From Thermococcus radiotolerans (lineage in GTDB: Archaea; Methanobacteriota_B; Thermococci; Thermococcales; Thermococcaceae): DNA of 64,000 nucleotides. A program made the position numbers and the translations under genes. The stretch lies in contig NZ_CP015106.1 of NCBI RefSeq assembly GCF_002214565.1, forward strand, positions 248,001-312,000. The letters are read 5' to 3'. Below the pieces are notes generated by a model, which worked only from the letters and a program-made list of their open reading frames with translations, had not been told where the DNA came from and did not search any database. Positions 21,206-34,009 of this stretch are shown here, piece by piece; within the stretch, counting starts at the first letter, position 1, and each line of letters begins with the position of its first letter.

Positions 21206-21877
21206 TTAAACGCAGTCTTCTATCTTGGTCTCCATTTCTTTCCCGTACTCGGCAACGTTCGGGGACTTGATGACTTTAAGAACAACGGCGTTCTCCTCGA
21301 ACCTGACTCTGAAGACTCTGCTGGCGTGCTCCCTGAGCTCCTTTAGGGTTCTCTCGGTGAAGAGCTCGGTATTTATGAAGTAGACCGTCGTCCTCCTCTC
21401 GTCACCCAGGTACGGCCTGATCATGTAACCAAACAGGGATTCCAAATCTTTTCTGTCCACCTCGTGCATCGCCAGGACCTTGTCGAAGCCGAGAACGATT
21501 CTGACCGTGTAGTCCGCGTCCACTTTCTTCAGCGCTTCCTCGTAGTGCTTCTTCCTTATCGGGAACTCCTTGCTGAGGTCAACCCTGCCGAGGACTTTTC
21601 CGGTCTTGAGCAGTCCGCCTATTTTTATGACGTTGGCGGTGTCTATGAGTTCGGTGTCAACGCCGGCCAGCTTGAGCTGCGTCCTGAAGACGTGGAGCTG
21701 GTCCAGTTGATCCACTATTATAACGGGAACCCCGTTCTCCCGCAGGCACCTCAGGAGGAGGTGAAAGAACATATGAACAGGTTCCCCGGAGGTGTATTCG
21801 ATTAGAACGTCCTCCCCCGGCTTGATACTCCGGAAGTATTCAACCAGCGGCTCATCACCAGCGCTCGTCATGGCCAT
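21206..21877 (-). CDS. DUF257-family protein (Thermococcales)
   Basis: 223-residue cytoplasmic protein of the DUF257 family, common in Thermococcus and Pyrococcus and with a fold thought to resemble RecA/KaiC-type domains but without an obvious Walker A motif here. The recognisable segment is VDQLDQLHVFRTQLKLAGVD (about residues 56-75). Function unknown. The start could be ATG 21877 or ATG 21871; a TTTTTAAAA TATA-like sequence lies just upstream. It converges on alaX with a three-base gap. Confidence 0.82.
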   Translation of the reverse strand: MAMTSAGDEPLVEYFRSIKPGEDVLIEYTSGEPVHMFFHLLLRCLRENGVPVIIVDQLDQLHVFRTQLKLAGVDTELIDTANVIKIGGLLKTGKVLGRVDLSKEFPIRKKHYEEALKKVDADYTVRIVLGFDKVLAMHEVDRKDLESLFGYMIRPYLGDERRTTVYFINTELFTERTLKELREHASRVFRVRFEENAVVLKVIKSPNVAEYGKEMETKIEDCV

Positions 21878-22076: not shown

Positions 22077-22211
22077 TCACTCCTCCAAGCTTCCGAGCTT
22101 ACTTGCAAGCCCGCCGATGAAACCCGCCACCAGAATTATCACTAAGAAAATTCCCACAATTATGAAAAAATCCAGTATCAACAGCAGACCCACGTACAGT
22201 GCAGGGTGCAT
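22077..22211 (-). CDS. 44-aa single-span membrane protein
   Basis: Short gene, 44 residues: a brief start (MHPALYVG), a hydrophobic segment of about 26 residues (LLLILDFFIIVGIFLVIILV) and a small polar tail (LASKLGSLEE). The ATG has the strong site GGGAGGGGT three bases upstream, a TATA-like GGTTTATGG lies near 22247-22255 and a hairpin follows the stop. This supports expression although the protein is tiny. Function unknown. It sits at the left edge of the CRISPR island, on the same strand. Confidence 0.6.
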   Translation of the reverse strand: MHPALYVGLLLILDFFIIVGIFLVIILVAGFIGGLASKLGSLEE

Positions 22212-22708
22212 AGACCCCTCCCACCCTATGCGTTTGAAGGCCATGCCCATAAACCTTTCTAACGGGGAAGGTTTTGAGTGTTCTTACCTTCCTCCCCCGA
22301 AGAGAGCGAGGTCGGCGGAGAGTGCAAACTCTCGCCGATTTAACTTAAACTTTTGCCTGATTGTGCTCTGTGTGTTCTGTGTGCTCGTGCGTACTCACAC
22401 TATTTTGAGGCTATGAATATATAGCCCTATCAAGCCGCATGAAAGTTTCACGCGGCTTGACGGGTTGACACCGAATGCAGTGCTCATAGTGGGCGGGTAC
22501 ACACCGAGAGAGTGTCACCAGCACGTATTTTCGCTATGCTGGTGCATACCAGATGTGGGCGCATCATGCTGAAAGGGCGTTAGTGCTAGAGAAAGTACGA
22601 ACAAAGAGGGAAAACGGGGTGAAAGTTTTGACAATGCGCCCGGTATAACCATGTTATAAGTGGAACCCTTTGACAAGCTCTTCGTGCAAAATCTTTCCGT
22701 TTATGCCA
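22212..22708. other. Gene-free, hairpin-dense region beside array A
   Basis: No convincing protein gene on either strand. Four inverted repeats lie within about 235 bases: 22312-22338 (TCGGCG/CGCCGA plus AGAG/CTCT, one bulge), 22409-22426 (GGCTAT/ATAGCC), 22430-22460 (TCAAGCCGC/GCGGCTTGA with an inner TGAAA/TTTCA), and 22516-22544 (CACCAGCA/TGCTGGTG), the last next to ACAC/GTGT (22501-22515) and enclosed by GGTA/TACC (22496-22550). It could be a structured RNA, the end of a lost mobile element, or regulatory DNA. GC content looks modest for a stable RNA of a hyperthermophile. Confidence 0.5.
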
Positions 22709-23450: not shown

Positions 23451-23705
23451 TTATATTATGTTCTCCTGAGGGTTTCTTTCGTGGCCTATGACGTGAACTT
23501 TGAATTTTCCGGAGAGTTCATATATTAAAACTGAGTCGTCACTGTCTATCAGTTTTGAGAGGCCCTTTTTAACCTCCTCCAGTTGTCTATAATCTATTTC
23601 TCCTTCAAAGACACTATTCTGTCGCCAGCACAGGTATCTTGCTAGAAAGTCGTGAACTTTGACAACCCTCTTCTTGTCCACGTCGTAAACGACGATGACG
23701 TGCAT
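23451..23705 (-). CDS. cas2: CRISPR-associated endoribonuclease Cas2
   Basis: 84-residue Cas2, structural partner of Cas1 in the spacer integration complex. The ferredoxin-fold start MHVIVVYDVD carries the conserved Asp8, followed by RYLCWRQNSVFEGEI and a C-terminal strand region. The ATG at 23705 overlaps the cas1 stop by one base (TAATG) and has GGTGGT just upstream, so cas1 and cas2 are translationally coupled. The in-frame GTG codons further up are less likely. No cas4 lies nearby. Confidence 0.93.
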   Translation of the reverse strand: MHVIVVYDVDKKRVVKVHDFLARYLCWRQNSVFEGEIDYRQLEEVKKGLSKLIDSDDSVLIYELSGKFKVHVIGHERNPQENII

Positions 23706-24658
23706 TACCACCACGCTCTGAGGGACTTGTACTTTCTTTTCCCCGTTATATGGTTTCTAAAGGAGTATAGCTCTAACCTCATTATGTACCTCACGGAGGT
23801 GTACCTTTTGAGTTGGGGATGTCGAACTTTTCTCTCTAACTCCCTGTTGAACCCTTCGACGAGGAGTCTCTTGCCCTCATCAGTCAGATAAACGCCGTTC
23901 CCCCTTTTGAAATGTTCCTCCTGTATTTCCCGCCTGTTCGTCATCCGGGATGTCACTCGAAACACGGTGATTGGTTTGAAGATGTCAGCTATGTCGAAGA
24001 CGAGGGAGTTCCTCCCGTCTCTTGGCTCGTGAAGGTAGCTCACAGTGGGGTTTAAACAGGTTTTGTGAATCTCTGAGAGAATCACGCCGTAAAGAACTGC
24101 GTTCCCGTAACTTATCATCGCGTTCACTTCGTCGCCTGGTGGCCGCCTCTTCCTACCATCAAACCTGAAGTGCTTGAGGGATAGGCCAAAGAGCCGGTAG
24201 AACTCTCTCCACAATTGGCTCTCTAAGCCCAAAAGCTCATTCGGCGTTTCGGCTTTTATCTCCACCACTTCAATCTCTCTGGTGTCTATCCCTAGAGAAC
24301 GGAGGAGGGATAACATCGAAGCCTTTATTCCCTCGATGAACTGGGTCGCTATGTAGCACCGCTTCTCCGCATCAAGATAGTGATCAACTTGGGCGATGAG
24401 TGTTGAACCGCAAGGATTCGAGTCGGCTGGAATGAAAGATCCCCGGTAGTTTCCCCTTGTGCTGTAGCAGTGAACGGGAATTCCTTCTCGGGACAACAGC
24501 CTCAATGCCCCGCTCGTTAGTGTCACAGGAGCAAGACAAAAGACCTCACTCGTGGCCTTTACGGGAATAGTCCTCTTAATACCCTCCCCCTCGAACCTGA
24601 GCGTACCCTTAAAGCACCTGAGGATCCCTGGTTTAGTTATGTACAGGGGCCTTTTCAC
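23705..24658 (-). CDS. cas1: CRISPR integrase Cas1
   Basis: 317-residue metal-dependent DNA integrase for spacer acquisition. Metal ligands are visible: Glu146 in LLGLESQLWREFY, His210 in SYLHEPRDG and Asp222/225 in FDIADIFKP. The N-terminal beta domain (RPLYITKPGILR) and C-terminal helical domain are complete. The start is GTG 24658, which overlaps the stop of a 43-residue membrane protein gene by four bases (GTGA). No promoter is apparent between that gene and array B, so transcription may come from the array. Confidence 0.95.
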   Translation of the reverse strand: MKRPLYITKPGILRCFKGTLRFEGEGIKRTIPVKATSEVFCLAPVTLTSGALRLLSREGIPVHCYSTRGNYRGSFIPADSNPCGSTLIAQVDHYLDAEKRCYIATQFIEGIKASMLSLLRSLGIDTREIEVVEIKAETPNELLGLESQLWREFYRLFGLSLKHFRFDGRKRRPPGDEVNAMISYGNAVLYGVILSEIHKTCLNPTVSYLHEPRDGRNSLVFDIADIFKPITVFRVTSRMTNRREIQEEHFKRGNGVYLTDEGKRLLVEGFNRELERKVRHPQLKRYTSVRYIMRLELYSFRNHITGKRKYKSLRAWW

Positions 24659-24786
24659 CTTAATCTCCCCGTGAGGTCGTTGATCAACCGGTCTAGCCCC
24701 TCCATCATGCCCCTAAAAATCGCCCAGATAACCCAGAGGATAATCAACCAGACGATAAGTCCGATGAGTAAGTCCAGCATTTCCAT
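24655..24786 (-). CDS. 43-aa membrane protein coupled to cas1
   Basis: Short open frame of 43 codons. It encodes an N-terminal acidic start (MEMLD), a hydrophobic segment rich in Trp and Ile (LLIGLIVWLIILWVIWAIF), then a charged amphipathic tail (RGMMEGLDRLINDLTGRLR). Its TGA overlaps the cas1 GTG by four bases, strong evidence for translational coupling. It starts 21 bases after the terminal repeat of array B. The upstream ribosome site is weak (GAAGG); ATG 24780 is a second possible start. It is not a known Cas protein to my knowledge. Possible roles are membrane tethering of the adaptation machinery or merely a coupling ORF (inference). Confidence 0.6.
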   Translation of the reverse strand: MEMLDLLIGLIVWLIILWVIWAIFRGMMEGLDRLINDLTGRLR

Positions 24787-24807
24787 CAGGCCTTCTGTGG
24801 TTCCCAC

Positions 24808-25627
24808 TAAGCGATACAACAGTGTTCTGCGGAAACCGGGAATTGACTACGGGAAGGACAGCCCAGTCAGAGTGCTCATGTTTCCACACAATTCTGTTCT
24901 ACGGAAACAAGCGGAGGACGAGGATCCAGGTTCCCCTCACATGCAGGCGGTAGTTTCCACACAATACTGTTCTACGGAAACTCAAGGAAATGTATGAACA
25001 TTTAGCAGAGAAGATTTGGCAGGATACTTTCTACACAATACTGTTCTACGGAAACCGTGTTCCAAGTCGAAAATTACCCGCTCGCAAGCCTAGAAAAGTT
25101 TCCACACAATACTGTTCTACGGAAACATTAGTGAAGACCTACCGGAAAGTAACCGGTAGGCGTGAAGTTTCCACACAATACTGTTCTACGGAAACTTCAT
25201 TCCCGCCGGCAAATACCGGTACCCGAGGAATCTCCTCAAGTTTCCACACAATACTGTTCTACGGAAACCATCTCCAAACCTCCTTTTCGTTTTATAAAAG
25301 GAAAGAAACAAGTTTCCACACAATACTGTTCTACGGAAACCACGCCCCGATACCGAGCCGGAATACCGAGGAGAACCCGGAGTTTCCACACAATACTGTT
25401 CTACGGAAACTTAAGGGTTTGGTCAGAATGGATAATTTGGCCGAAGTTGTTATTCAAGTTTCCACACAATACTGTTCTACGGAAACAGGGCTCTGAGGAG
25501 GCTGGTTTCTTGTGGCGTGCGGTGTTTGTTTCCACACAATACTGTTCTACGGAAACTTTGGGAGGAGATACAAGAAAGGAGGTACATGTGATGAGGAGGT
25601 TTCCACACAATACTGTTCTACGGAAAC
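24808..25627 (-). CRISPR. CRISPR array B, 12 repeats
   Basis: Twelve 29-base repeats start at 24808, 24880, 24953, 25027, 25098, 25167, 25240, 25312, 25382, 25458, 25528 and 25599. The plus-strand form begins GTTTCCACACAA, continues TACTGTTCTA and ends CGGAAAC. Nine are identical. The 24880 copy has one change, 25027 two, and 24808 is heavily degenerate, marking the left end as the old trailer end. Spacers are 40-47 bases. The leader is therefore on the right and transcription is on the minus strand, the same strand as all cas genes. This is the best-preserved and probably active array. Confidence 0.97.
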
Positions 25628-25682
25628 TTTCAGGATTTTCAGTTCTTTTGGTGTGTAATATTATTTTCTTCCTTCTATTTAA
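25628..25682 (-). promoter_or_regulatory. Leader of array B with TATA element
   Basis: CTATTTAA at 25675-25682 starts 48 bases from the repeat edge, matching arrays A and C. The sequence between is AT-rich and starts TTTC.GG.TTT as in array A. It predicts a minus-strand start near 25655, just ahead of the first repeat. Confidence 0.7.
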
Positions 25683-26120
25683 TTGTTTCTTGGGAAATCG
25701 GTAGCACCGGCACTCATTTATAAAGGGGTGCCAGGATAACGGAGATTGCTCTTCACTGGGATTTCGTAGCTGCCCTGTTATAATCCTTTGTGGGGAAATT
25801 CCAACTCGAACAGTGACATCACGGCTGATTAAGCGTGCTATCGTGATTTTTAATCTCTAAAACCTGTGTTCTCCATCCGGGTAGGCTTTTCTGGGATGGG
25901 AGATTTTCTATTCCACATAAGGGCGTTTTTCCGGGCTTTAATTTTCTTGGAACTCACCCCCTCTTCGGTTCCGAAGGACTCATCCCTGAGAATCTAGCTC
26001 CCTTTTCAGCATTTTTAGAAGAAAGAAACACCTGAATAGTACTCCTTAAGGAGAAATAGGGAAGAACGGTCTTAATTTGTCCCGGACAGGCTCGTTCTCC
26101 CTTTTCCTTTCTTACCGGTG
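25683..26120. other. Gene-free stretch between array B leader and csx1
   Basis: No supported gene on either strand. It holds an 11-base inverted repeat, GGTAGCACCGG at 25700-25710 and CCGGTGCTACC at 26115-26125 (the latter includes the csx1 stop), and a 12-base perfect palindrome CTCCTTAAGGAG at 26042-26053. It is probably an extended leader plus the 3' region of the csm operon. Confidence 0.45.
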
Positions 26121-27401
26121 CTACCCTTCGAGGGTTCTCGTCAGGATTGTTTCAATGACCTTCCACGGCTCTTTCATCGCCCCGCCGTATTTCACGTTCT
26201 CTTTTGTGTATCTAACGTACAGCTCGCCCTCGCGCTTCACCTCTATTAGGTTGGCCTCAAGGCCGGCGTGGGCCAGGAAGTTCCTGTCATCGACCTGCGA
26301 GTTTGGGTTCTTGCCCAGCAACCTCAGGAGTTCGGAATACCTGATCCATCCGTTGGTGTCCAGCTTTACGGACTTCGCGAGCCTGTCAAGTTCAGTCTTT
26401 GTTGATGCCAGGACCCTTCCCCGGAAGATGCGCTCCGATATCTCCACCAGCTCCTCCATGGAAAGCTCTTCCTTTGGAAGTCTATCCATTTCAAGAACCT
26501 TTGCCTGGAATGAGAGCTTCACTAGGGCCCCGAAGCCCCTCCCGAGGGAGAGCTTCCGCTCGACACTCCCCGGCGAAACCTCCACCGCGCGGGTATAGAC
26601 GTCGGCCAGCTCTTCAACTGCCCCGGAAACTATCTCCATCTCCGGAAATGCAGAGGTGAAGACGAGGGGGAGACCGTTTACGACCGATGAAATCCAGGCG
26701 TTGAGCCTGCCGCGCTGGTCTCGTATCTCCCGAAGCTTCTTGAGTGACTGGAGCACGTTTCCGTAATCCTCCCCTTGAAGGGAGAAGTTGCCGAGGTAAT
26801 CCTTCGTGTTCGGTGGTAGCGGTTCGAAGAGAGGGAGGGGTTTCACCTCTCCAGCCTCGATAACGTTTATCGTCAGCTCCTTCGTGATGTCCGGTACGAG
26901 AGGGTCCGAATTGTACGCCGTGAAGGTTACTTTGTTAGTTATTGCCGCTATTCCAAGGAGCTCCTTCAGCGCCCTGTACGCTAGGAGTGTGATGTAGTTG
27001 AGCCCGTGGGTCGAGTCGAAGTGAACGTCGAGGTCTCCCTTAGGGGGGAGTATCTGGCTTATCCCGTGGAGCAGATAGTAGTATGTGTCCATGGCACCCC
27101 CTTTGAACGTGCCGTGTGCAAAGTGGCCTATCCCTGGGACGATCAGGACGTCAACTTCCCTCCCCGCACCGATCCTTTCGAGGAAGTCCATTACCCTGCT
27201 CTTCACGTCTTCCCTAAGGGCTTCAATGGAGGAGAAGTCCCTCCCGAGGGTGTCTGAGAGCACTATAACCGTCCAGTCCGGCTTTATTGCCTTTTGGAGT
27301 ATGGGGAGCGTTGATGGGCCGACGGAGCTTTCTTCACCGAAGCGGTACTTGGTCTCCCGCCACCTCTCGAAGTCCCCCCATGAAATGACGAGGAGCTTCA
27401 T
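26121..27401 (-). CDS. csx1: CARF-HEPN ribonuclease, Csx1 family
   Basis: 426-residue type III accessory effector. An N-terminal CARF (Rossmann-like) domain includes LVISWGDFERW, the ligand-site motif STHGLNYITLLAYRALKELLG (shown in parts: STHGLNY then LLAYRALKELLG) and long helices. The C-terminal HEPN domain has RNFLAH (Arg373-x4-His378), the RNase active site. Csx1 proteins are switched on by cyclic oligoadenylate made by Cas10 and cleave RNA nonspecifically. The ATG overlaps the csm5 stop by four bases, making it the last gene of the csm operon. Confidence 0.87.
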   Translation of the reverse strand: MKLLVISWGDFERWRETKYRFGEESSVGPSTLPILQKAIKPDWTVIVLSDTLGRDFSSIEALREDVKSRVMDFLERIGAGREVDVLIVPGIGHFAHGTFKGGAMDTYYYLLHGISQILPPKGDLDVHFDSTHGLNYITLLAYRALKELLGIAAITNKVTFTAYNSDPLVPDITKELTINVIEAGEVKPLPLFEPLPPNTKDYLGNFSLQGEDYGNVLQSLKKLREIRDQRGRLNAWISSVVNGLPLVFTSAFPEMEIVSGAVEELADVYTRAVEVSPGSVERKLSLGRGFGALVKLSFQAKVLEMDRLPKEELSMEELVEISERIFRGRVLASTKTELDRLAKSVKLDTNGWIRYSELLRLLGKNPNSQVDDRNFLAHAGLEANLIEVKREGELYVRYTKENVKYGGAMKEPWKVIETILTRTLEG

Positions 27402-28618
27402 TCGAGCACCACCCAGCCCATCGGCATTCCTTTGGCGAGCCTTCTCGTCTTGGGGAAGTCCCTTGAGAGCCCCCTCCCTCCGGGCTTCTGGCCGAGGCCC
27501 AGCTGCCTTCTAACGCCCTCCCACCGTCGGTTTTCCTTGAGGAGGACACCGATTGTCATGGCCAGCCAGCCACTCCCCCAGCCGATGCGTAGAACGTGTC
27601 CTCCGTGGCCCTCCAGTGAGGAGTAGAACCTCTTAACCTCCGCTGCCTTAGTTCCGAACTTCCTGGCTTCGGCCGTCTCGGCTTTCCTGACGGCCGTATA
27701 GAACTCTTCCACAGCCTCCCAGAGGAAGGTCTCAAAGGCTTCCCAGGGCCGTCCCCAGTCCCTCAGGCACTCCCACAGGACCCCGTTGAAGTAATCCGAG
27801 TTCAGCCGGAGGAGTTCGGTATCGACCTTCACCTCTATCTCGGCGGTGGTTCCGGGTTCCAGGGCCTCGACCCAGATGGGTATCGGCTGAACGTTTCCGA
27901 TGACGTCAACGTGATAGACGGCGAGGCGCTTCTTCCCTATCGCCCCGCTGTCCCTCACGATCAACGCCCTCATGGGGTCGCGCTTCGGTTCGTACTTAAC
28001 CCCGGAGCGCCTGTCCGATTCCATCCCGAACACGATGGCCTCAAGCAGGTCGTCGGCGTGCTTTCCATCCGTTCTCTCCTGCGGGAGCTTTGCCAGATAA
28101 AAGTCCACGAGGCTCTCGCTCCAGCCTATTTCTCTGGCCAGTTCCGCGGTTTTTCTCTCTACCTGTCCCCTTTTGTTTTTTATCCCTGAAACAACGTTCA
28201 TAGCCGTGCCAGAGTCGCCGCACTCCTTCAGAGCCTTGTAGAGAACCGCCGTTCTCAGCGCTCCTTTAACGCTTGAACCTGGGATGTAAGGCCTCCCGTT
28301 CAGCTTTATGAACTCCTTTATCTGCATGCTCCTCCGTCCGGGCTCTCCGTGGATCCTTAGGGCGTAGAGTGCATAATCCGAGGGGTTCAGGTGGAGTTCA
28401 TCTATGTACCCCTTCCAGACGTAGGCGTCGCCAGGCGGGTTCTTGAGCAGGTGTAGTATCTCTTCGAGGCTTATTCCCATATTAATAAGATCTGCGGTGA
28501 GCTTTCCGGTATCGAGGACGTAAACGACGCCATCGCCGGGATATATGTCGAGGGGAGTTAACTCTCTGCCGTTGCCGATGTGGAGGGGGGAGAGCACCTT
28601 CAGAGTCATCCCTGTCAT
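27398..28618 (-). CDS. csm5: Csm5, type III-A RAMP subunit
   Basis: 406-residue RAMP subunit that caps the 3' side of the Csm complex and helps crRNA maturation. The N-terminal SPLHIGNGRELTPLD is the Csm5/RAMP signature, RPYIPGSSVKGALRTAVL the second conserved loop, and the C-terminal half ends with Gly-rich GWGSGWLAM. The ATG overlaps the csm4 stop by four bases and has GGAGGGT six bases upstream. Order csm4-csm5-csx1 is typical of III-A loci. Confidence 0.92.
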   Translation of the reverse strand: MTGMTLKVLSPLHIGNGRELTPLDIYPGDGVVYVLDTGKLTADLINMGISLEEILHLLKNPPGDAYVWKGYIDELHLNPSDYALYALRIHGEPGRRSMQIKEFIKLNGRPYIPGSSVKGALRTAVLYKALKECGDSGTAMNVVSGIKNKRGQVERKTAELAREIGWSESLVDFYLAKLPQERTDGKHADDLLEAIVFGMESDRRSGVKYEPKRDPMRALIVRDSGAIGKKRLAVYHVDVIGNVQPIPIWVEALEPGTTAEIEVKVDTELLRLNSDYFNGVLWECLRDWGRPWEAFETFLWEAVEEFYTAVRKAETAEARKFGTKAAEVKRFYSSLEGHGGHVLRIGWGSGWLAMTIGVLLKENRRWEGVRRQLGLGQKPGGRGLSRDFPKTRRLAKGMPMGWVVLE

Positions 28619-29460
28619 TCCAGACCCTCCGGGAGAAGCGTTGGAATTTGGAATGTTAAGCCGTAGACCTGAACCTTGAAGAGAAGGCCGAGGTCGAGGC
28701 TCTCAAACCTTCCTGGGTCTCCCTTCACAACCGAACCCTCCGCTATGAACGTCATCTTGGGCTTCCTTCGTCCGAAGCTCCAGCCGCCCTTTCTCAGGAT
28801 TTTCCAGAGAACGGGTGTTTTTGTCGGCAGGGCATTGGAGATGGTGACGGAGTACTGGCTCTCGGGGGCTTTTATCTCGATTGAGTCAAAGGAGGGATTG
28901 AACAATCCTGAGCCCCAGGTGGACTTTCCGCCGATTCCGGTATCCGCAAGGAACCTCACCGCAGGCTCTATAAAATCCCTGAAGGTGTCTTCAGGCCCTG
29001 AGTAGAGGAAGTAGAATCCCGCATTCTCCTTGAACCGCACTTCCTCCCAGAAGTATATCGCCGAATCTTGGGTCACCCTGTCAAGGACGACCTTGGGAAC
29101 GTCTACGATGGCGTGGGTATCCCTCTCTGGAACCTCGAACGGTTCCAGCTTCAGGGCTCTCTCAAAGTTTTCAAGGTCAAGATATGCCGCCCGTTTTATC
29201 CTCTTGGCCTTGGCCGTGTCGTTTCCGAAATCCATCAGTTCAACGGTCAAGGGTTTTGGGAGGTAGTAAGTGTTCCCAAGATACGGAAAGGCCGAGCTTA
29301 TCCTCGCTCCCCCCTTGAATGCCTCCAGCAGTTCCTCAACTGCCATCTGTCCATAGAGGAGAGAGACGGCATTGGCTATGGCCCCGAAGAGCGTGTCGGA
29401 ATGTGGAATTTCCCGTAAAGCCCCCTTGGGCTTCAGCCGCACCACTCTGAACTTCGCCAT
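28615..29460 (-). CDS. csm4: Csm4, type III-A RAMP subunit
   Basis: About 281-residue Cas5-like RAMP subunit that binds the 5' tag of the crRNA and contacts Cas10. Signature segments are IPHSDTLFGAIANAV (residues 18-32), the central FKENAGFYFLYSG and the Gly-rich TGIGGKSTWGSGLF. ATG 29460 is chosen over GTG 29463: it shares one base with the csm3 stop (TGATG) and has GGAGG seven bases upstream. It is part of the overlapping csm operon. Confidence 0.92.
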   Translation of the reverse strand: MAKFRVVRLKPKGALREIPHSDTLFGAIANAVSLLYGQMAVEELLEAFKGGARISSAFPYLGNTYYLPKPLTVELMDFGNDTAKAKRIKRAAYLDLENFERALKLEPFEVPERDTHAIVDVPKVVLDRVTQDSAIYFWEEVRFKENAGFYFLYSGPEDTFRDFIEPAVRFLADTGIGGKSTWGSGLFNPSFDSIEIKAPESQYSVTISNALPTKTPVLWKILRKGGWSFGRRKPKMTFIAEGSVVKGDPGRFESLDLGLLFKVQVYGLTFQIPTLLPEGLE

Positions 29461-30299
29461 CACCCGGCCTCCAGCCTGCTCTTCACCCCCGAGAAGAGCT
29501 CCTCAAAGTTCTTCAGAATTTCTGAAACTGGCTTTCCTTTGGCCCCATCTATCTTCACCTTCTGCCCCTCGTCCCCGGTTCTGTAGTACTCCGGGGTCTT
29601 GAACTCGACGGATTCAAACTCGAACTTCACCTTTCCATAGCCTCTAGAACCCGAACCGCCGAGGTAGCTGTCCTCGAGCAGGGCCATGGCCGTGAGGATG
29701 TTTCTCACATCGTCTTCCCACTGGTCGAGCCTCTCGACGTTGTAGATTATCTCGAACTCAAACTCTGTTCCGGCAACAACACGTTCAAACTGTCTTAGAT
29801 TTGTTTTGGAAGTAATTCTGTCTATTGAAACCTCGGGCTTCACCTCAGTTAACTCATCCAGGGGCCTGCCTTTCCACTCTGGTGTGAGATGGAGGTCTCG
29901 CACTATCACTCTGGATGGAAAATTGCTCTTATCACCGCTGGCTCCAAAGAGCCTGCACACTGGACAGTTGAGGGCAGACTCATAATCGGGGCAGACATGG
30001 ATGTTAATGGGGTTTTCCTTAGTTCCGATATTCTTGTTGAAAAAGTTCTCTGTGGTGTTGATGTTGTATTTTTCTCTGTTTGAGTTAACATAGATTTCAA
30101 ATAGGCTCCTGAGACGTCCCTTGAGAGAGGAACCTGGAATGTAGGGGTAGTGCGTTAGAGGGTCTCTTATTACTGGAGAGTCAACACCCCCAATCTCTGC
30201 AACGTTTCTACCGGCCCCTATTTTGAGGCCAGTCTCTGCTTTGAGTTTTCCCGTAAATATGATCTTTCCATAAAATCCGCGGTCTCTACCCTCCATCAT
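29460..30299 (-). CDS. csm3: Csm3, backbone RAMP and target RNA endonuclease
   Basis: 279-residue Cas7-like backbone subunit. GLKIGAGRNV (residues 24-33) is the Gly-rich RNA-binding loop. In EIGGVDSPVIRDP the Asp40 aligns with the catalytic Asp of known Csm3 proteins that cut target RNA at six-base intervals, so RNase activity should be intact. YIPGSSLKGRLRSL and a Cys-bearing CPDYESALNCPVCRLFG segment (putative Zn site) follow. The ATG overlaps the csm2 stop by four bases with GGAGGT upstream. Confidence 0.93.
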   Translation of the reverse strand: MMEGRDRGFYGKIIFTGKLKAETGLKIGAGRNVAEIGGVDSPVIRDPLTHYPYIPGSSLKGRLRSLFEIYVNSNREKYNINTTENFFNKNIGTKENPINIHVCPDYESALNCPVCRLFGASGDKSNFPSRVIVRDLHLTPEWKGRPLDELTEVKPEVSIDRITSKTNLRQFERVVAGTEFEFEIIYNVERLDQWEDDVRNILTAMALLEDSYLGGSGSRGYGKVKFEFESVEFKTPEYYRTGDEGQKVKIDGAKGKPVSEILKNFEELFSGVKSRLEAG

Positions 30300-30901
30300 T
30301 CTCTACCTCCAAAGTAGCGGTGATAAGCAACAATGGCTTCAAAGAACATGTACACCTTCTCAAAATTCTCAGGGCTTGCATTTTGATCTAAGGACAGCCA
30401 GTTCAAAATTGGCTCTAATACCTCCTGGATGGGAAGGACACTTTTGTTTTTTCCTGCATAGTATGCCATTAACATGTTCATTCTTACGGCTTCTTTTTTG
30501 ATTTTCTGAGTAACGGCTGTCATGTCCTTTTTAGTAGTTACCTCAGTATGAAGACTCTTTGCCATTTCAATTATTTTGCGTATCTGAGTTGTCCTTAAAT
30601 CGTTAACAACGGCATATGCGGCCACTATAGCGGCGTTTTTGAGGACTTCAATCTCGTCCCAATTTTTAAAGCCTTTCCCGTTTTCTTCTCTTGCCTTGCT
30701 TTTCACTTCTTGATACAGACTTTTGAGTGCATCACGCACCTCAGACTTCCGAAGGCTAGTCCGAACTTCCGAAAAATTGCCCTCCTCAAAAGCCTTCTTA
30801 ATGCCTCTTATGGTCTCAGGGTCTTGCCTCGGATGTTGGTGCCTACGCTCCTGTCTTTGGGGGGAATGCCTCCCCTTACCATATCCACCTTGGTAACCCA
30901 C
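30296..30901 (-). CDS. csm2: Csm2, small helical subunit
   Basis: About 201-residue small subunit of the Csm complex, with a basic His/Arg/Gln-rich N-terminal extension (about 1-27) and an all-helical body that lines the target RNA. The body matches Csm2 in length and helix pattern (LKNAAIVAAYAVVNDL, ALYQE-like segments) and ends FEAIVAYHRYFGG. GTG 30901 is well spaced from GGAGGTGA; GTG 30910, overlapping the cas10 stop, is the alternative. The long basic N-terminus is unusual and may add RNA affinity (inference). Confidence 0.85.
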   Translation of the reverse strand: MGYQGGYGKGRHSPQRQERRHQHPRQDPETIRGIKKAFEEGNFSEVRTSLRKSEVRDALKSLYQEVKSKAREENGKGFKNWDEIEVLKNAAIVAAYAVVNDLRTTQIRKIIEMAKSLHTEVTTKKDMTAVTQKIKKEAVRMNMLMAYYAGKNKSVLPIQEVLEPILNWLSLDQNASPENFEKVYMFFEAIVAYHRYFGGRE

Positions 30902-30906
30902 AACCT

Positions 30907-33255
30907 TCACCTCCTAACCGCCATAAGCAGGATTTTCAAAACACCATCAATCCAGTAAATTGGCTGGGGCTCGTTCTTTTCGACTGCAGTCGCGTCAATC
31001 CCGACGAGCTTCGGGAAGAAACCCGAAAGCCCGTGCCTACCGAGAAGGTAAGCCGTTAGGTACGCCCAGCGGACGTCGTTGGGATCCCTCACGTACAGCT
31101 CCCTCAGCTCAAGAAGTCGCATCAGCAGGCTCTTCTTTGAGTCGAAGGGTTTTCTGAGCCTCCCGTTCCCGGCGTATATTTTTGAGGTGTACTCCCTCCA
31201 AAGCTCCTTATATTCGTCCCAAGTGTACGCTGCCGGGTGTCTCCCATCCTCTGGGTGGCTTCTTTCAATTACCACTATCCTGTCCCGCCCCTCGTCCTTG
31301 GCAGTTTCAAGTCTCCCGCTGACAACCTCCGCCATCCTGTATATAGGGGTCTTCGTGTCGAAGTACCCAAGGCCCGCGGAGAGGGTAAGTCCCTCACCAG
31401 TGTACGCCCTGAACGTTTCCCTTATCCTGAAGGCCAGCTCGAACGTCTGATCCCACGCCCCAACGATGAAGAAGTCATCGCCACCGGCGTAGACCACGAC
31501 GATGTCCGGGACCTTGGGCCATTCCCTCAATGAGGGAACCGTTCCTATTACGTATCCGGATTTCCCCTCGATAACGGCCCTCATGTATCCCTTGAAGAAG
31601 TAGTCCATGAAGCGTGAAGCCGTCGCAAGCTTCGATGGACTGTCCATTGAACCGAAGAACTCCCCGAGCCTGTCAACGTCCCCCTTGAGAACCCCTATCC
31701 TTCTCGCGCCCGTTGAAGCCTCCGCGAGCTCCTCGAAGTCCGCCATGTGGCCTTTTTCAGACTCCCTGAAGTAGTCGGCCACGAAGTATGGGACGAACTC
31801 CATTGACTCCGGAATCTCGGGCGGGTTCAGCGTATTCTTGAGCAGGAAGAACTCTCCCCTCGGAATCGGCCCTCCCGCGTAGGGGATTAGATTCCTGAAT
31901 GGTCCCCGTGTCACGCCCTCCTCTTCCCATGCTTTCCTGTCTAAAATGAAGCCCTTAACCTTTGGAAGCCTCGCCCCAAGTTTGGCGAGCTCGTTGCACG
32001 TCCTGCAGACCTTGACCTCTTGGTCGAGAATGAAGGGTTCAAGATTCCTCTCTGGGACTTCCTTCCCACAGACTGGACACTCCACCAGCCTTTCCGCCTT
32101 TGGTGCCGTGAACAAGCCCTCAACTTCACCGAAGCGCCTGAGCTTCCTTACGTTCAGCTTCCTCCTAAGCCGCTTTCTTGCCTCTTCAAAGAGGTTTCTG
32201 TCCCCCTTCCGTCCGAACTCCTCGCCGCTTATCGGCTCCCATTCAATGGCCAGATACAGGCTTCCCTCAAACTCCCTGTAAAGCCACTCGGAGATGACTT
32301 TTCTAATGCTCACGAGCTCCTCAACGGCCCTATCCGTGTTGGGGGCTATCACTAGGAAGTGACCGCCGGCGTTGAAAACCACGTTGGCCCTCGTTAGGCC
32401 AAGCCTCCCGAGGATTTCAAGTACAACGTCCCAGTTCATCAGCTCTAGGTAGGCACTCCTGGCGCGCAGGTATTTGAGCGTTCCTTTTCCCCTCACGCTA
32501 TAGATGAAATCCTGTATGCCCGAGAAATCGCCCTCAACCAGCAGGAAACGCTTCTCCCTCCTGCATGCGCCGGACTTAACATCCTCCGCCTTGCACCCAG
32601 AGAGAAGCATTGTGAGGGCGATTGCGGAAGTCATCCTCATGTGGTCGTAGAGTGAGATGGTGTTCCCTGAGAGCGTTACCGAGCTTACAAAGGTTAAGTA
32701 CTTTTCAAGAACCGGCATCACTCTGTCGATTTTCAGAGGGGTCTCCAAGAGCTCCGTGGCCATGGCTTTCACGAGGTTTCTGTAGTGCTCTCCCGATACA
32801 CGAACGTCCTTGACGGGCATTGGAAGGTCCGGAGACCCATCGAATTTTAATGTCCCCAGAGGATACTCCAAGTCTCTCCCGAAAACCGAGGTTAATGGCC
32901 TGAAAACGTAGAACTCCCCACCGCTTCCTTCCCGTTCAGCGGAGGAGAGATTGTCTGCCTCATAGACTATCCACAGCGCTTTTAGAACGTCTTCCTCGGT
33001 CAGTCCAAACCTCTCAGGGGAAACCTCTCGAATCTTGGCTCTCATGTTCTCCTCGTTTTTCATGTGCTCGTAGTGGTGGAACTCTGAGAAGAGCGCCAGA
33101 AGCTCGTACTCCGCCCTCCCAGTGCTCCTTGCTAACTCCCTGAGAAAGAGGGCACCCTGTGCAGAATGGTCGCCGGAGTAAAGGCCCGCCCTCTGAACGG
33201 GCTTCCCTATGTCGTGCAAAAGCCCGCCGAGAGCCACCAGTTCATGAATTTCCAC
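30907..33255 (-). CDS. csm1: Cas10/Csm1, type III-A signature protein
   Basis: 782-residue large subunit. The N-terminal HD nuclease domain has LLHDIGKPVQ (His14/Asp15) and GDHSAQGA, for target-activated ssDNA cleavage. A Zn ribbon has Cys393/396 and Cys417/420. The second Palm domain has VVYAGGDDFF with GGDD at 591-594, the cyclic oligoadenylate synthase site. Both catalytic centres look intact, so DNA cleavage and cOA signalling to Csx1 are expected. The start is GTG 33255, placed by GGAGGTGA four bases upstream. It follows cas6 with a four-base gap. Confidence 0.95.
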   Translation of the reverse strand: MEIHELVALGGLLHDIGKPVQRAGLYSGDHSAQGALFLRELARSTGRAEYELLALFSEFHHYEHMKNEENMRAKIREVSPERFGLTEEDVLKALWIVYEADNLSSAEREGSGGEFYVFRPLTSVFGRDLEYPLGTLKFDGSPDLPMPVKDVRVSGEHYRNLVKAMATELLETPLKIDRVMPVLEKYLTFVSSVTLSGNTISLYDHMRMTSAIALTMLLSGCKAEDVKSGACRREKRFLLVEGDFSGIQDFIYSVRGKGTLKYLRARSAYLELMNWDVVLEILGRLGLTRANVVFNAGGHFLVIAPNTDRAVEELVSIRKVISEWLYREFEGSLYLAIEWEPISGEEFGRKGDRNLFEEARKRLRRKLNVRKLRRFGEVEGLFTAPKAERLVECPVCGKEVPERNLEPFILDQEVKVCRTCNELAKLGARLPKVKGFILDRKAWEEEGVTRGPFRNLIPYAGGPIPRGEFFLLKNTLNPPEIPESMEFVPYFVADYFRESEKGHMADFEELAEASTGARRIGVLKGDVDRLGEFFGSMDSPSKLATASRFMDYFFKGYMRAVIEGKSGYVIGTVPSLREWPKVPDIVVVYAGGDDFFIVGAWDQTFELAFRIRETFRAYTGEGLTLSAGLGYFDTKTPIYRMAEVVSGRLETAKDEGRDRIVVIERSHPEDGRHPAAYTWDEYKELWREYTSKIYAGNGRLRKPFDSKKSLLMRLLELRELYVRDPNDVRWAYLTAYLLGRHGLSGFFPKLVGIDATAVEKNEPQPIYWIDGVLKILLMAVRR

Positions 33256-33259
33256 TTCC

Positions 33260-33973
33260 TCACCTCCTAACAGGGTTTAAGAATCCAAACCCAAGACTGT
33301 TCTTCTCCCCGAGACCCGCTTCCATGATAAATGCGTAGAACCTCTTCTCCTCGGCTCCAATTCTGTCCTTTTCCAGAAGCTCCCAGTTGGAGCCTATGAC
33401 CGGGAAGGGTTGCCCAGCCTTCACGACCTTCACGTAAACGTCGAGCTTTCCGTTCTTCCTGAACTTGGGCACCATACGGTCAAATATCGGCCCATCGAGA
33501 TGGAAATCGTCGTCGTAGAACGCGTTGTACTTCTTCTCCGCGTTCTCCTTGAGCCTGTTCAGGAAAAAGTTCAAGTCCCTGTGGGCATGGAGTTTGAAGT
33601 ACTCGTTCTCCCGCGAGTTCCTGTAGATGACAATGGGAGAGCCCGTTTGGAAGCGCTTTCTTAGGGGCAACTTGAACTTCTTTACCTCTGCAATCACGAG
33701 CTCCTCGGTGCCAAGATAGACCCTGACTCTATCCTTCAGGTTAGAGTGGAGGGCGTTGATGAAACCCTCGTCCGGGGAGGATATTATGAACGTCGGCCTG
33801 CCGTCGCGATCGAGGAAGAAGTCTGAAAACGTGAAAAACTTGAACTTGGCCTCATCGTGCCTATCACCGTAATTGGTACCCTTCAGCATGTTGTAGATGA
33901 AACCCTGGACAGCGTGTTTGTTCGGTCTGAAGTTGCCGTTCCCATTTGGATAAAAAGACAGTTTGAGTCTCAT
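33260..33973 (-). CDS. cas6: Cas6 crRNA-processing endoribonuclease
   Basis: About 237-residue Cas6 that cleaves pre-crRNA within repeats to leave the 8-base 5' tag. The tandem ferredoxin fold, the N-terminal HAVQGFIYNML helix (with a candidate catalytic His) and the C-terminal Gly-rich loop GLGEKNSLGFGF are visible. ATG 33973 is chosen because GGTGA lies five bases upstream; GTG 33982 is less likely. It is the first gene of the csm operon, behind a promoter with a palindrome. Confidence 0.92.
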   Translation of the reverse strand: MRLKLSFYPNGNGNFRPNKHAVQGFIYNMLKGTNYGDRHDEAKFKFFTFSDFFLDRDGRPTFIISSPDEGFINALHSNLKDRVRVYLGTEELVIAEVKKFKLPLRKRFQTGSPIVIYRNSRENEYFKLHAHRDLNFFLNRLKENAEKKYNAFYDDDFHLDGPIFDRMVPKFRKNGKLDVYVKVVKAGQPFPVIGSNWELLEKDRIGAEEKRFYAFIMEAGLGEKNSLGFGFLNPVRR

Positions 33974-34009
33974 CCGGGTCACCGGAAGATTTGAACGGTA
34001 TAACTTTTT

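Follow-up and report, generated by a model that had tools for sequence, protein, structure and literature searches.

What is a short hydrophobic reading frame doing between a CRISPR array and cas1? The question arose in a stretch of 64,000 nucleotides from Thermococcus radiotolerans (the window; all coordinates are positions within it), where such a frame begins close behind array B and ends inside the cas1 start codon. The original prediction took it for a membrane protein that might tether Cas1-Cas2 to the membrane, act as a switch for adaptation, or only deliver ribosomes to cas1.

The ORF and its CRISPR locus

The features needed here are as follows.
23451..23714, minus strand: cas2 (Pfam CRISPR_Cas2, 1.2e-21)
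23705..24658, minus strand: cas1, 317 aa, with a GTG start and a 4-nt overlap with the ORF (Pfam Cas_Cas1, 7.7e-67; the M-K start is kept in relatives)
24655..24786, minus strand: the ORF, a predicted 43-aa single-pass membrane protein (translation, homologues, shuffle test, dN < dS, AF2 helix)
24665..24670, minus strand: GGGGAG, the Shine-Dalgarno-like (SD) sequence of cas1, within the last codons of the ORF (anti-SD duplex -8.0 kcal/mol)
24808..24836, minus strand: degenerate repeat that closes array B, a short way upstream of the ORF (from the sequence; relatives have degenerate terminal repeats too)
24880..25627, minus strand: CRISPR array B, 11 near-identical 29-nt repeats, reading towards the ORF and cas1

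Pfam identifies cas1, cas2, csx1, csm1-5 and cas6 in the window, csm3-5 being recognised as RAMP proteins and numbered by gene order. Loci of this type in relatives have the order csm - csx1 - cas8-cas7-cas5 - array - cas1-cas2-cas4-cas3 - AlaX, though some genomes lack parts of it. The window retains csm, csx1, the array, cas1, cas2 and AlaX (the csm, cas1 and cas2 region being 23451-34000), and neither Cas4 nor Cas3 has a match anywhere in this genome, save one helicase-like hit at 26%. To judge by its gene content, the genome has apparently lost the type I half of a composite type I/III-A locus. The earlier label of type III-A is incomplete as to descent: related loci combine III-A with type I, and here the type I part has apparently gone.

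The product of the ORF is MEMLDLLIGLIVWLIILWVIWAIFRGMMEGLDRLINDLTGRLR, read from an ATG at 24786 to a TGA at 24657-24655 on the minus strand, a strand that the original prediction did not give. It was correct that the frame ends in the cas1 start codon (GTG at 24658-24656, hence GTGA) and that it starts about 21 bases beyond the degenerate terminal repeat, which runs from 24836. The codons upstream of the ATG are open too, making 63 in all, with a TTG at 24819.

Of random sequences, 15-21% would be expected to have an open 43-codon frame at this site, and on length alone the ORF might be a chance frame. However, none of 20,000 random sequences was both open and as hydrophobic as the ORF (19-residue mean 2.94), and homologues in other genera already refute chance, which we regard as virtually excluded. 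Within the 64-kb window, 0.22% of all open 43-codon stretches match the hydrophobicity of the ORF, and these are presumably mostly true membrane genes. Since it has homologues in other genera, the ORF is, as far as sequence can tell, a genuine protein-coding gene.

Homologues, selection and predicted form

Relatives were sought in 94 genomes of the family Thermococcaceae, one per species. By tblastn the best is in G012 (44% identity, E 3e-7), with weaker matches in genus g4. Local alignment scores were then compared with those of 5000 shuffles, in which the N-terminus, membrane segment and tail were kept apart. Against the window ORF this gave z 10.2 for G012, 7.3 for G083 and 6.3 for G074 (0/5000 in each case), and 4.7 for G084, 4.2 for G075 and 4.1 for G086. 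The G015 copy scored z 0.2 against the window ORF and z 6.4 (1/5000) against G012; because it is significant against G012 alone, it is considered only a probable relative. With a profile search came G079 and G086, another copy in G012, and copies in G076, G077 and G081 that are broken; a wider one added a second G076 copy and a G042 copy, probably frameshifted, and found no convincing relative beyond the Thermococcaceae.

Weak tblastn matches in G053, G049, G006, G009 and G082 were rejected as chance, as they lie in large other frames or contain stops. Searching the 94 genomes at the DNA level with the ORF region gave only short chance matches, tblastn against phages and plasmids gave no relative of the ORF, and searches for related loci in genome contigs and viral contigs, with cas1 or the 54-aa version of the ORF as query, gave none. 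The product has only sub-threshold matches in Pfam, NCBIfam, PADLOC and the PDB, and the open-licence literature holds no mention of such a protein. The earlier statement that no such protein was known at these loci thus stands, in that no family in these four libraries fits, and the family had been missed by all of them.

As a control we used a 57-aa frame of similar hydrophobicity (22250..22077, minus strand), which matched only itself and had no relative in the 93 other family genomes (E 0.01). This control frame, MGMAFKRIGWEGSMHPALYVGLLLILDFFIIVGIFLVIILVAGFIGGLASKLGSLEE, overlaps a plus-strand ORF and is flanked by array A on one side and by the gene at 21206-21877 on the other.

The family members share an alignable transmembrane helix, a conserved G-x3-W (G9 and W13 are invariant) and an amphipathic tail. 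The original prediction had named lack of conservation or of synonymous bias as grounds against it; instead, there are relatives in other genera, and each of the eight pairs compared had a pN lower than its pS, several pairs being saturated (window-G012 0.30 vs 0.50; G083-G074 0.21 vs 0.70). These substitution ratios indicate that the family is under purifying selection as protein. The claim of a membrane protein-coding ORF inside the cas operon is borne out.

AlphaFold2, run on the single sequence, gives one helix over residues 2-42 (pLDDT 94.8), of which residues 16-42 are amphipathic (hydrophobic moment ~0.6). The predicted form is one transmembrane helix running on into an amphipathic C-terminal helix. 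The N-terminus is negatively charged and the tail has four Arg against three acids, a charge distribution that suggests a topology that is probably N-out/C-in.

Three genomic settings

The family occurs in three settings: at a CRISPR locus, behind an ADP-ribosylglycohydrolase gene, and beside a GGGP synthase gene. The CRISPR setting comprises the window, G012 and probably G015, which is 3 of the 23 loci surveyed. The G012 copy lies not after an array but about 54 nt after cas3, facing AlaX, and the probable G015 relative is placed alike. Because both sit at the opposite end of this locus type, after cas3, the CRISPR link of this subfamily is real but looser than a linkage to cas1.

The second setting is found in G086, G012 and G076. 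In G086 and G012 the peptide ATG overlaps the stop codon of the ADP-ribosylglycohydrolase gene, a TPR protein is encoded next, and genes for McrB-like, DUF2357-nuclease and HerA proteins are nearby, marking defence islands. It is worth adding that a cluster of GGACT, ADP-ribosylglycohydrolase and a small membrane peptide recurs (L107 6781-9644, L106 6172-9682, L138 226-1638). The islands that contain it have McrB-like or HerA genes, and in L106 and L107 a TPR protein comes next. The cluster may represent a defence or stress module that has yet to be described.

The third setting is confined to genus g4, where the copy beside the GGGP synthase gene is intact in G074, G075, G079, G083 and G084. 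Some GGGP synthase-side copies have their own promoter-like and SD sequence. The copy is broken in the other 5 of 10 species, by stops in G073 and G078, by truncation in G077, by an insertion in G076, and also in G081. The G076 copy (L111) is split by 2.2 kb containing transposase-like and TnpB-like ORFs, so named from their sequence. With five copies intact and five disrupted, the family is dispensable in this genus.

In the family tree, which is only indicative as the alignment has just 52 columns, the three settings form three clades, with two changes of context. Without the long G015 row, the window and G012 copies are joined at 98/98; with it, the three CRISPR copies group together at 90/97.

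The window copy could belong to a real family and yet be idle here, a mere passenger as a hypervariable defence locus is rearranged. Its sporadic occurrence (the 3 of 23 loci), its varying position among loci, the frequent decay in genus g4 and the weak ribosome-binding site of the ORF all fit such a passenger. Against this, the frame is intact, the conserved residues are in place, pN is below pS in comparison with G012, and the CRISPR copies form one clade, hence a lasting association. We consider an idle copy possible but unlikely.

On balance we favour, as somewhat the more probable account, a membrane peptide that is accessory, autonomous and dispensable. Defence loci would have captured it, in one instance the composite type I/III-A CRISPR locus, and it would act at the membrane alone and not as a subunit of Cas1-Cas2. 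Its position suggests that the ORF is probably translated from a transcript reading through array B into ORF-cas1-cas2. Autonomous action is preferred to a tether because the partners differ by context and the g4 copies stand alone, though the peptide may depend on some partner at each locus. Since the CRISPR copies form a clade of their own, there is room for a CRISPR-specific role that this account underplays: the copies in the window, G012 and G015 may be a membrane peptide specific to the composite locus, working with the adaptation or Cas3 module, for instance at the membrane where foreign DNA enters. We hold this to be less probable still than an idle copy. A functional CRISPR clade would mean a membrane component encoded next to cas1 or cas3, and no description of one was found in the open-licence literature.

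Relation to cas1 and to known membrane peptides

The overlap with cas1 had been read as the strongest kind of coupling signal, and this did not hold. All surveyed cas1 genes of the clade start with NTGAAR, that is, ATG, GTG or TTG with AAA or AAG as the second codon. Such a start contains TGA one base in, so that any preceding frame in that register stops there; short repeat-derived frames of 25-28 codons in L005, L009, L012, L016 and L025 likewise stop at cas1. Because the TGA is automatic, the GTGA overlap is weak evidence of coupling, and start-stop overlaps with cas1 in this lineage are inherent in the cas1 start and no sign of coupling. Moreover, cas1 is equipped with a ribosome-binding site stronger than that of the ORF: the cas1 SD duplex of -8.0 kcal/mol compares with -3.3 at the first ATG of the ORF, with -5.0 at the third codon of the ORF and with a mean of -3.9 for the window background. 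The site of the ORF itself is weak, and translation of cas1 should be independent of coupling to it. A role purely as a translational relay, in which the ORF matters only through ribosomes that finish there and restart at cas1, has the 4-nt overlap in its favour; the automatic stop, the stronger cas1 site and the conservation of the ORF's amino acids across genera make it very unlikely.

A search for short transmembrane ORFs directly upstream of cas1, which the original prediction had called for, found none of this family before 28 related cas1 genes (one, L018, is too near a contig end to be decided) or before 40 further cas1 genes of Thermococcaceae. Among the latter, L159 has a hydrophobic frame ending 81 nt upstream of cas1, which is unrelated to the family. 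Nearly all other cas1 genes are therefore without the ORF. The conserved linkage expected of a component of the Cas1-Cas2 adaptation module is not found in either set (28 + 40 cas1 genes), and from the absence before 68 other cas1 genes it follows that Cas1-Cas2 does not need the ORF.

The proposed role with Cas1-Cas2 is left without support by these 68 upstream regions and by the relatives away from CRISPR loci. As a membrane tether or switch, the peptide would bind Cas1 or Cas2 through its cytoplasmic helix and bring spacer capture to the membrane. The ORF does overlap cas1 and precede cas2, the charge distribution suggests that the amphipathic helix is cytoplasmic, and two relatives are in cas1-cas2-cas4-cas3 operons. 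Set against the 68 cas1 genes, the relatives with no Cas1 nearby and the partners that vary by context, this makes a tether improbable, and an optional accessory gene is more likely than a part of the spacer-acquisition machinery.

Type III CRISPR systems have known membrane effectors, namely Csx23, Cam1, Cam2, Cam3 and CorA (PMC11014256, PMC10808066, PMC11229360); they exceed the ORF product in size, and most carry a sensor domain (PMC11229360). Their genes, like the ORF, lie in CRISPR loci that also encode Cas10, and their products too are membrane proteins. In favour of a signalling effector at the membrane, the window locus has both Cas10 (Csm1) and the CARF nuclease Csx1. However, they have sizeable domains, mostly including a soluble sensor, whereas the ORF product has 43 residues and a single predicted helix, and has relatives outside CRISPR. 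It has no soluble ligand-binding domain of the Csx23 or Cam1 type and no match in PADLOC or Pfam, and such an effector is highly improbable.

Equally improbable is a CreTA-like arrangement, in which the array supplies a crRNA-like RNA that keeps a toxic peptide silent. A small hydrophobic ORF does adjoin a degenerate repeat here, but such terminal repeats are normal before cas1 genes that have no such ORF. No antitoxin match of the CreTA type was seen, the longest match to the ORF region among 21 spacers (a list without the final one, which adjoins the degenerate repeat) being 8 nt, and this reading was rejected.

The nearest likenesses are of a general kind. Bacterial type I toxin peptides (DinQ, PMC3567139; reviewed in PMC8309996) are likewise single-helix, hydrophobic, dispensable and patchy in distribution; the ORF differs in being archaeal, apparently under purifying selection across genera and embedded in operons, and of the marks of a type I toxin its product has only the predicted hydrophobic single helix. 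The archaeal 'dark matter islands' (PMC4158269) likewise hold lineage-restricted small membrane proteins in defence-rich islands; this is a likeness by kind, and the ORF family is possibly among the arCOGs listed there. What is new, judged from the homologues, is a small unnamed accessory membrane protein family of Thermococcaceae with a CRISPR-specific subclade of putative function. A single odd ORF thus becomes a small, testable membrane peptide family that recurs in unrelated defence loci of the Thermococcaceae.

We note finally that in most relatives (L004-L025) the degenerate terminal repeat of the array runs into the cas1 leader, and that in several of them the SD sequence of cas1 is formed by the repeat end, for example GTCGTGCGGTGGTGCT-ATG.
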